NCBI GenBank assembly: GCA_019459455.1
Contig: JAIBEX010000014.1
Location: forward strand, 1 to 64,000
DNA: 64,000 bases
Reading direction: 5' to 3'
From: Weeksellaceae bacterium
GTDB taxonomy: Bacteria; Bacteroidota; Bacteroidia; Flavobacteriales; Weeksellaceae
Of the stretch, positions 58,871 to 61,278 are shown piece by piece. How positions within the stretch are numbered: the stretch's first letter is position 1; each line of letters begins with the position of its first letter. The notes beneath the pieces are model-generated. The model did no database searches. It had not been told where the DNA came from and saw nothing but the letters and a program-made list of their open reading frames with translations. Made by a program: the position numbers and the translations under genes.

Positions 58871-60442
58871 CTATCTTGCAATATTCACCGATCTGGTCTC
58901 GCGGATCACAGTCACCCGAACTTGTCCCGGATAGGTCAGTTCATTCTGAATCTTTTCAGAAATATCATAAGAAAGTTGTGAGGACTGATCGTCGTTCACC
59001 TTGTTGCTTTCCACCATCACCCGAAGTTCACGTCCGGCCTGTATCGCATAAGCACTGGAAACACCGTCAAAACTCATTGCAGCCGCTTCCAGGTCTTTTA
59101 AACGCTGAATATAGGATTCCAACACCTGACGTCTTGCGCCCGGCCTTGCACCTGAGATCGCATCGGCAACCTGAATGATCGGAGAAAGAAGGGAAGTCAT
59201 TTCCACTTCGTCGTGGTGCGCACCGATGGCATTTACCACCTCGGCATTTTCACCGTATTTTTCAGCCCACTGCATCCCCAACAGGGCGTGTGGAAGTTCG
59301 GATTCCTGTTCCGGAACCTTTCCTATATCGTGCAGTAAACCTGCTCTTTTTGCCATCTTAACATTCAGTCCAAGTTCTGCAGCCATTGTAGCGGCAATGT
59401 TGGCCACCTCACGAGAGTGCTGAAGAAGGTTTTGGCCATAAGAGGACCTGAATTTCATTCTTCCCACAATTTTCACCAGCTCCGGGTGAAGTCCGTGGAT
59501 TCCCAAATCAATGATTGTCCTCTTACCTACTTCAATGATTTCTTCTTCAATCATCTTTCTCGTTTTATCTACCACTTCTTCAATCCTTGCAGGATGTATT
59601 CTGCCGTCGGTTACAAGTCTGTGTAGGGAAAGTCTTGCAATCTCTCTTCTTACTGGATCGAAGCATGAAAGAAGAATTGCTTCGGGCGTGTCATCTACGA
59701 TGATCTCAACACCGGTCGCAGCTTCAAGGGCGCGGATGTTTCTTCCTTCCCTCCCGATGATACGTCCTTTAATCTCATCAGATTCAATATTGAAGACTGA
59801 TACTGAGTTCTCGATTGCCTGTTCGGTACCGATTCTCTGAATGGTCTGTATGACGATTTTTCTAGCTTCCTGCTTTGCATTGAGCTGCGCTTCTTCCATG
59901 ATACTCTGTACATGCGCCTGGGCTCTGCTTTTCGCCTCTGACTTCATGGCCTCTACGAGTTCAACTTTTGCTTCCTCCGCACTGTAGTTGGCTATTTTCT
60001 CAAGGGTTTCAACTTTCTGCGCCATTACAGTGTCCAGTTCCTGCTGTTTCTTCTCAAGGATCTCATGCTTTTTGGAATAATCTGCAATCTGTCTGTCCAA
60101 ATCTTTCTCCAGTTTTCCAGCTTTGCTCAGTTCGTCATTCAGTTTCTGTTCCTTGTCTTTCGTTCTCTTCTCGGCATCCTGCATCTTTTTTTCTCTGCTT
60201 TGGATTTCGGCATCGTGCTGGGATTTAAGCTCCAAAAACTTCACCTTTGCCTGAGATTCTTTTTCCTTTCTTACAGCCTCTGCTTTCACATTTGCTGTTT
60301 CTATAATGTTTTCGGCATTTTTCTTTGCATCCTGAACAATGAATTTTGCTTTAGTATTAAGGGAACTTTTAGAAAAAACAATTCCTAAAATGGCTCCGAT
60401 AATTAATGCTGCAATGCCGACGATAATAACGGTTAGTGTCAT
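58871..60442 (-). CDS. rny: Ribonuclease Y
   Basis: The 523-residue membrane-anchored endoribonuclease starts mRNA decay. It has an N-terminal membrane helix (about 1-22), a long coiled coil (about 30-195; [39 protein letters not shown]), a KH domain ([20 protein letters not shown]), and an HD domain with [20 protein letters not shown] and [11 protein letters not shown]. Length is usual. The gap to zapA upstream holds a structured RNA. Confidence 0.96.
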
Positions 60443-60497
60443 ATATATTGAGTTTTATGTATTTGTCCTGTGTTTATGTTTGGTTATATTTTAAAAA

Positions 60498-60672
60498 TAA
60501 AAAACCTACAACAGTTCAGTGATATAGAGTAAACTCCTAATCAACACGATTTGAACTGATTTCCACTGTCTGTAATCCGCGGTTGCGGCACGCCATTCAC
60601 TGGACTTTTGCTCGGTAATTGTTTAGCGTTGAGTTTACCTTTAATGTGTTAGAACTATTGTAGGCAGTACTG
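60498..60672 (-). ncRNA. ssrS: Candidate 6S RNA between zapA and rny
   Basis: On the minus strand CCTACAATAGTTC (60652-60664) pairs with GAACTGTTGTAGG (60505-60517) over 13 bases with one G-U pair, and TTTTTTATTTTT follows the 3' arm. Inside, GTAAACTC/GAGTTTAC (60631-60638 with 60529-60536), AACGC/GTGTT, and a terminal CCGC-AACC-GCGG hairpin (60577-60588) are separated by large internal loops. A long stem with a central bubble, about 170 bases, directly after zapA, is the 6S RNA arrangement known from E. coli (zapA-ssrS). 6S RNA mimics an open promoter and binds the housekeeping polymerase. Strand is inferred from the T-run; a plus-strand RNA is possible. Confidence 0.6.
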
Positions 60673-60688
60673 TATGAAAAAGAAAAAT

Positions 60689-60976
60689 CTACTTTTCCAG
60701 GTCTTCCAGCAACTTACTGATTTTCACCAGCCGGTCGTTGGAAGCATTTATATTTTTTTCGTTGACTGCGGAGGATACTTCAGCATTGGTTCCCAGTTTT
60801 AGGGCACACATTGCAAGTGCATCCTGCTTATCCCTGACATCGAAATTAAGTTCAAAATCCTTAATCATAGTTTCAATCAGCTTCCCAACTTTTCTCAGGG
60901 TTTCTTCCTCTGCTGCAGGAACATTCAGCGGATAAACCCTACCGGCAATGTTGATGGTAATTCGTCTTACATCCAT
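60689..60976 (-). CDS. zapA: Cell division protein ZapA
   Basis: The 95-residue protein binds FtsZ and stabilises Z-ring bundles. The start (DVRRITINIAGRVYPLNVPA) is the ZapA beta-hairpin globular part, followed by EEETLRKVGKLIETMIKDFE and a C-terminal coiled coil. The helix segment DKQDALAMCALKLGTNAEVS is conserved. The upstream coiled-coil gene overlaps by one base; the candidate 6S RNA begins about 17 bases after the stop. Confidence 0.93.
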   Translation of the reverse strand: MDVRRITINIAGRVYPLNVPAAEEETLRKVGKLIETMIKDFELNFDVRDKQDALAMCALKLGTNAEVSSAVNEKNINASNDRLVKISKLLEDLEK

Positions 60977-61278
60977 TACAGTCCACTGTTTTGAAGCTCT
61001 GCAATACAGAAATCCACTTCTTTCATTAACCTGTTGATGTGATTCTTCATCAGTCGGTTATGTTCGGGATTTCCAGATATTGCTGAATAAAGTTTTATTT
61101 TCTTTTGTTCTTCTGCGAGTACCTGACTTTTCTTACGCTCTTCATCATATTTCTTTTTCAGCTCTTCATGTTCCTTATCCAACTCCGCATATTTTTCATA
61201 GAGGGTCCGGTAACTTTTGCTGACATTAGAAATCTTTTTCTCCAGTTCCGAAAAATTATTTTCTAATTCTTTGAGCAT
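60976..61278 (-). CDS. Coiled-coil protein encoded with zapA
   Basis: The 100-residue protein is almost entirely coiled coil (ELENNFSELEKKISNVSKSY, HEELKKKYDEERKKSQVLAE) with a short C-terminal part (NPEHNRLMKNHINRLMKEVD). It overlaps zapA by one base, so the two are translationally coupled. A role in division as partner of ZapA is a fair inference; I cannot name it. A TATTTTTG promoter box lies at 61308-61315. Confidence 0.75.
   Translation of the reverse strand: MLKELENNFSELEKKISNVSKSYRTLYEKYAELDKEHEELKKKYDEERKKSQVLAEEQKKIKLYSAISGNPEHNRLMKNHINRLMKEVDFCIAELQNSGL

Follow-up and report, generated by a model that had tools for sequence, protein, structure and literature searches.

In the window, meaning the whole stretch of 64,000 nucleotides that was analysed, the genes zapA and rny (RNase Y) are separated by a gap that contains a structured RNA on the same strand (Table 1). 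The original prediction had placed a flavobacterial 6S RNA in this gap, and profile matches to PF05164 and TIGR03319 identify the two flanking genes as it had named them. A short coiled-coil ORF precedes zapA (60976-61278) and has a weak ZapB match below the cut-off (E 3.7e-4); if this ORF is ZapB, the resulting zapB-zapA-6S arrangement would parallel that of beta/gamma-proteobacteria (PMC7641849). A nucleotide search showed that a 6S-like RNA is kept in 113 of 149 sampled Weeksellaceae genomes, mostly at 74-98% identity, and the order zapA-RNA-rny was found in every Weeksellaceae locus fetched.

Table 1. Genes, RNA elements and candidate signals at the zapA-rny locus, in window coordinates.
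Feature	Position	Strand	Basis or remark
rny (RNase Y)	58871..60442	minus	TIGR03319, 628 bits
6S RNA, structured part and terminal T-run	60499..60667	minus	Fold, covariation, sub-threshold Rfam matches, model R1
Closing stem, 3' arm	60504..60517	minus	T-run after the arm
Inner stem, 3' arm, GAGTTTACT	60528..60536	minus	Fold and conservation
Probable central bubble, 3' strand	60537..60552	minus	Cross-family conservation
Candidate -7-like element, AAATCGTG	60545-60552	minus	(T/A)AA(A/T)CnTG across families; putative assignment
Apical arm	60553..60613	minus	Terminal CCGC-AACC-GCGG hairpin at 60577-60588
Probable central bubble, 5' strand	60614..60630	minus	Unpaired in the consensus structure
Putative product-RNA template	60623..60639	minus	Analogy with E. 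coli and B. subtilis (PMC8876501), conservation
Inner stem, 5' arm	60631..60639	minus	Pairs with 60528-60536, 9 bp in the fold
Closing stem, 5' arm	60652..60665	minus	Pairs with 60504-60517, 14 bp
Hairpin GGAAAAG-TAGATTTTT-CTTTTTC	60676..60698	minus	Spans the zapA stop codon, 5' of 6S
Possible weak own promoter, TAGATTTT	60684..60691	minus	5/6 match to TAnnTTTG, TTG 18 nt upstream
zapA	60689..60976	minus	PF05164, 54.2 bits (cut-off 23.8)

The minus strand of positions 60490-60675 folds with an energy of -53.3 kcal/mol (z -4.39), and the long hairpin spans 60504-60665. A plus-strand RNA was ruled out by the unremarkable fold of the same stretch on that strand (z -1.15), where the match of the covariance model R1, described below, is also weak (25.9 bits). 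The elements originally described are present, the closing stem with 14 bp instead of 13 and the inner stem with 9 bp instead of 8, together with the terminal hairpin of the apical arm. The T-run on the minus strand, also part of that description, can be read directly from the sequence (60499-60504, followed by one A and then by five further T), and because it comes after the 3' arm of the closing stem, this arm probably doubles as an intrinsic terminator. Overall, the RNA has the architecture of the 6S class, namely a rod of about 160-200 nt with a closing stem, a large central bubble and an apical arm.

Covariation was analysed in an alignment of 39 Weeksellaceae sequences. Standard pairs occupy 98.6% of the pair cells, compared with 90.5% after shuffling and 32-45% in slid controls. 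Changes on both sides were found in 19 of the 41 pairs (none of 500 shuffles was as high), and 153 double-change cells were observed, while 45 are expected from shuffles. The signal is carried by the closing stem, with five of 14 pairs changed on both sides and 99.6% of the cells paired, and by the apical arm, which holds most of the double-change pairs. The inner stem adds little because it is nearly invariant in the 39 sequences, which is what one would expect of a stem whose sequence is also important. A lack of covariation in the stems had been named beforehand as grounds for refuting the 6S proposal; the proposal survives this test, covariation being strong overall, with the inner stem contributing weakly. 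A mere intrinsic terminator, or a chance inverted repeat after zapA, would account for the stem and T-run at the 3' end, and yet this explanation is hardly credible: it is refuted by the extensive covariation along the whole rod, none of 200 shuffles of the sequence folds equally well, and at least 74% identity is kept across genera in an intergenic gap.

A search of the Rfam models at their gathering thresholds found nothing in the window RNA. With relaxed thresholds, in 1 kb of sequence, Bacteroidales-1 (RF01693; 40.1 bits, E 5.8e-05) and 6S-Flavo (RF01685; 35.4 bits, E 0.0021) both matched the minus strand end to end. The covariance search proposed with the original prediction therefore gave a full-length match to 6S-Flavo, though with a score below the cut-off. 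The gathering thresholds are 85 bits for RF01685 and 60 bits for RF01693, and the window RNA is unannotated because it scores below both. Across the whole genome, the window locus is the top match of RF01685; a candidate second copy was rejected as a chance match only (E 9.8). Over the order, RF01685 has matches in 101 of 196 genomes, of which 12 are above the cut-off, and all 30 loci that were retrieved, these 12 included, lie between zapA and rny. As so few genomes pass despite this uniform gene order, the threshold, and not homology, looks to be at fault. Similarly, none of the fetched Weeksellaceae loci gave a match at the Rfam gathering threshold. Three reduced f16 genomes of the same order (G163, G174 and G183, 0.3-0.6 Mb) had no 6S-Flavo match.

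The covariance model R1 was built solely from the 39 Weeksellaceae sequences, and its score for the window RNA (193.8 bits) is high by construction. R1 recovers, in full length, both the RF01685 loci (E ~1e-17 to 1e-8) and all seven Bacteroidales-1 RF01693 loci that are above the cut-off (E ~1e-8 to 4e-6). It gives one match per genome in the order sample; in a permissive run on 40 relatives, the second matches lie on the opposite strand at the same place, with one weak exception. Because R1 finds both families, the window RNA bridges RF01685 and RF01693, which appear to describe one RNA. The common locus, the reciprocal model matches and the strong covariation identify the window RNA as the Weeksellaceae orthologue of 6S-Flavo, the 6S RNA described from Bacteroidota. 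The same three lines of evidence, with the position identical in 30 of 30 RF01685 loci, bear out the original identification, and we consider it very probable that this Weeksellaceae species encodes its 6S RNA at 60499-60667 on the minus strand. This kind of 6S RNA is already known, and the window RNA is a previously unannotated member. In the same phylum, dRNA-seq revealed the 6S RNA of Bacteroides together with its product RNAs (PMC7366714), and Flavobacterium psychrophilum is another species in which a 6S RNA has been detected (PMC9723704).

Comparison across families delimits the functional parts of the rod. The constant elements across Bacteroidota are AAACTCA(A/T)C, with which the 5' strand of the central bubble begins, and (T/A)AA(A/T)CnTGT...GGAGTTT on the 3' strand. 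These conserved strands favour 60614-60630/60537-60552 as the central bubble, and they suggest that the template of a product RNA lies at about 60623-60639, a candidate that runs from the 5' bubble strand into the inner stem. The single-sequence fold forms four weak pairs inside this bubble (60620-60623 with 60543-60546). The outer bubble (60640-60651/60518-60527) was also considered as the central bubble and is less likely, since its sequence and length vary outside Weeksellaceae while the inner bubble is conserved.

6S RNA is among the few RNAs known to control RNA polymerase itself. The 6S RNAs of E. coli and B. subtilis mimic a promoter in its open state: the apical arm supplies a -35-like region, the central bubble supplies a -10-like region on its 3' strand, and product-RNA synthesis proceeds from the 5' strand of this bubble into the helix next to it (PMC8876501). 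By analogy, the rod of the window RNA with its central bubble would pose as an open promoter and occupy RNA polymerase with the housekeeping sigma factor, chiefly once growth has ceased. The motif (T/A)AA(A/T)CnTG of the 3' bubble strand resembles the -7 element TAnnTTTG. A position scan for a strict TAnnTTTG mimic in 6S gave no clear peak, and as the scan does not single out (T/A)AA(A/T)CnTG, promoter mimicry in this register is only suggested by the resemblance. The polymerase would then use the 5' bubble strand and the inner stem next to it as the template of a short product RNA, and this synthesis would melt the inner stem, refold the RNA and free the polymerase. When the template was blocked in silico, a new hairpin was predicted in the 3' strand, reminiscent of the release hairpin of E. 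coli. Nearly all members can form it; a permutation test showed no covariation of this hairpin within Weeksellaceae, and in other families there is a slight excess (29 of 500 permutations as low). An alternative pairing, GGTAA/TTACC, had been suggested to refold the RNA. Both sequences are present, one arm shifted by a single base (60635-60639 with 60614-60618), and the pairing is possible in 92% of the cells; with zero compensatory changes, refolding by this pairing is not established. A 6S-shaped RNA could also bind the core polymerase without promoter mimicry or product RNAs, as suggested by Ms1, which is described as structurally related to 6S and yet a binder of the core enzyme (PMC9130861). 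We regard this as highly improbable for the window RNA, because the homologous Bacteroides 6S has product RNAs (PMC7366714) and cross-family conservation is highest in the bubble strands.

Regarding transcription, a perfect TAnnTTTG precedes the free-standing 6S genes of Bacteroidales in seven of seven cases, at a distance of 14-32 nt. In Flavobacteriales, a perfect TAnnTTTG is almost absent from the 400 nt upstream of 6S, which suggests co-transcription with zapA; the 6S RNA would be trimmed from the common transcript afterwards. A weak promoter of its own is possible in the window, because TAGATTTT matches at five of six positions and lies where the Bacteroidales promoters would lie; it is not decisive, as it overlaps the stop codon of zapA. 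The hairpin over this stop codon has counterparts in most of the sampled Weeksellaceae, where the arm sequences differ between genera yet still pair. The energy support of these hairpins is modest (mean z -1.06), and they are possibly the 3' end or a processing signal of the zapA mRNA.

Downstream of the RNA, no perfect TAnnTTTG is found between 6S and rny in the window (60442-60498), and in nearly all loci it is absent from the 250 nt after 6S, so that transcription of rny may depend on readthrough at the end of 6S. This dependence of rny on readthrough, the position between two co-directional genes and the final stem with its T-run would also fit a cis-acting element of the zapA-rny transcript, such as a leaky terminator or a leader setting the amount of rny, in place of a free 6S RNA. 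Such an explanation is very unlikely: in Bacteroidales the same RNA is free-standing, away from rny and with its own promoter, the Bacteroides 6S has product RNAs (PMC7366714), and it is mainly the bubble strands that are conserved, parts for which a simple terminator has no use. A cis-acting role could nevertheless coexist with the function as 6S RNA.

Most relatives that carry the 6S RNA between zapA and rny have a further conserved element before it. The pattern G(T/C)TC(A/T)TT, usually in the form ACGTTCTTTA(A/C)A, occurs within 45 nt before 6S in 61 of 68 non-Weeksellaceae Flavobacteriales loci; shuffles of the 68 loci give about one such site, and any other 45-nt bin has at most 2 of 68. 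Ten of 11 rny-linked loci from other families of the class have the site within 85 nt, f87 being the one without it. The element follows the zapA stop codon and precedes 6S by about 12-72 nt (loci L073-L102, L190-L229 and L240-L253). In some loci of other orders (L241, L247 and L249-L252), short inverted repeats of differing sequence lie between this site and 6S, for instance CAACGC...GCGTTG in L247. Just two of the 39 loci in the Weeksellaceae sample have the element, and the window is without it, the stop-codon hairpin standing there instead. No such site was seen beside the free-standing Bacteroidales-type 6S genes; at one free-standing locus (L244), a distant match to the pattern lies upstream of the promoter.

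The element resembles the boxA of rrn operons, as the 16S leaders of several relatives of the same order carry a similar core (e.g., AACGTTCATAGACATATTGG and AAAGTTCATTGACATAACA); in the 6S leader, G(T/C)TC(A/T)TTA stands before a regulatory RNA and not before rRNA. The exact pattern ACGTTCTTTAMA is rare genome-wide and missing from the rrn leaders, so this comparison relies on the looser core, and the leaders were taken from relatives because the draft genome containing the window yielded no 16S rRNA. The E. coli boxA, TGCTCTTTAACA, matches the GCTCTTT variants in L096, L214 and L224; it was not seen in the 41-nt zapA-ssrS gap of E. coli. Based on sequence resemblance and position, we propose that the upstream element is a boxA; alternatively, it is possibly a conserved promoter or processing site. 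The complete scheme, to which we give an even chance, would be that 6S RNAs of Bacteroidota embedded between zapA and rny are made from the zapA transcript under boxA, the same Nus-factor antitermination signal by which rRNA is protected, that free-standing 6S genes have their own promoter and no boxA, and that most Weeksellaceae have the stop-codon hairpin. If this is true, boxA would tie the level of an RNA that inhibits transcription globally to the machinery of rRNA synthesis; a functional leader would mean that an antitermination signal stands ahead of a regulatory RNA. A survey of boxA targets from 2017 states that non-coding RNAs were not considered (PMC5725501), and our literature search showed no paper joining boxA and 6S RNA among the 30 listed, which is not proof of absence. 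The boxA-like leader may be the part of these observations that is new.

These results place 6S RNA firmly in Weeksellaceae (Chryseobacterium, Riemerella and relatives), where it is missed by the Rfam cut-offs; those of RF01685 and RF01693 exclude most true members. The Weeksellaceae alignment also offers a testable view of how a 6S RNA might imitate the divergent promoter of Bacteroidota.

Among named systems, 6S-Flavo (RF01685; Weinberg et al. 2010, PMC2864571) has the fold and the zapA-RNA-rny locus in common with the window RNA. They differ in the 3' bubble strand, which is AAATCGTG in Weeksellaceae and mostly AAAACTTG or TAAAC(C/T)TG in the 6S-Flavo of Flavobacteriaceae, and the boxA-like leader of the 6S-Flavo loci is lost in the window. 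Bacteroidales-1 (RF01693), for which a 6S function was suggested, shares the bubble strands and the GGATTACA of the apical arm. In contrast to the window RNA between zapA and rny, Bacteroidales-1 genes are free-standing, away from both, and have their own TAnnTTTG promoter; in one locus examined, the 6S gene sits after rplT. Regarding E. coli, ssrS is followed by fau where the window 6S is followed by rny, the housekeeping promoters differ from those of Bacteroidota, and our analysis demonstrated no sequence homology between the two RNAs. The adjacency to zapA invoked by the original prediction is confirmed, as the E. coli 6S RNA lies directly after zapA and forms a rod with a central bubble, as in the window, and the zapA-6S order is also present in beta/gamma-proteobacteria (PMC7641849).
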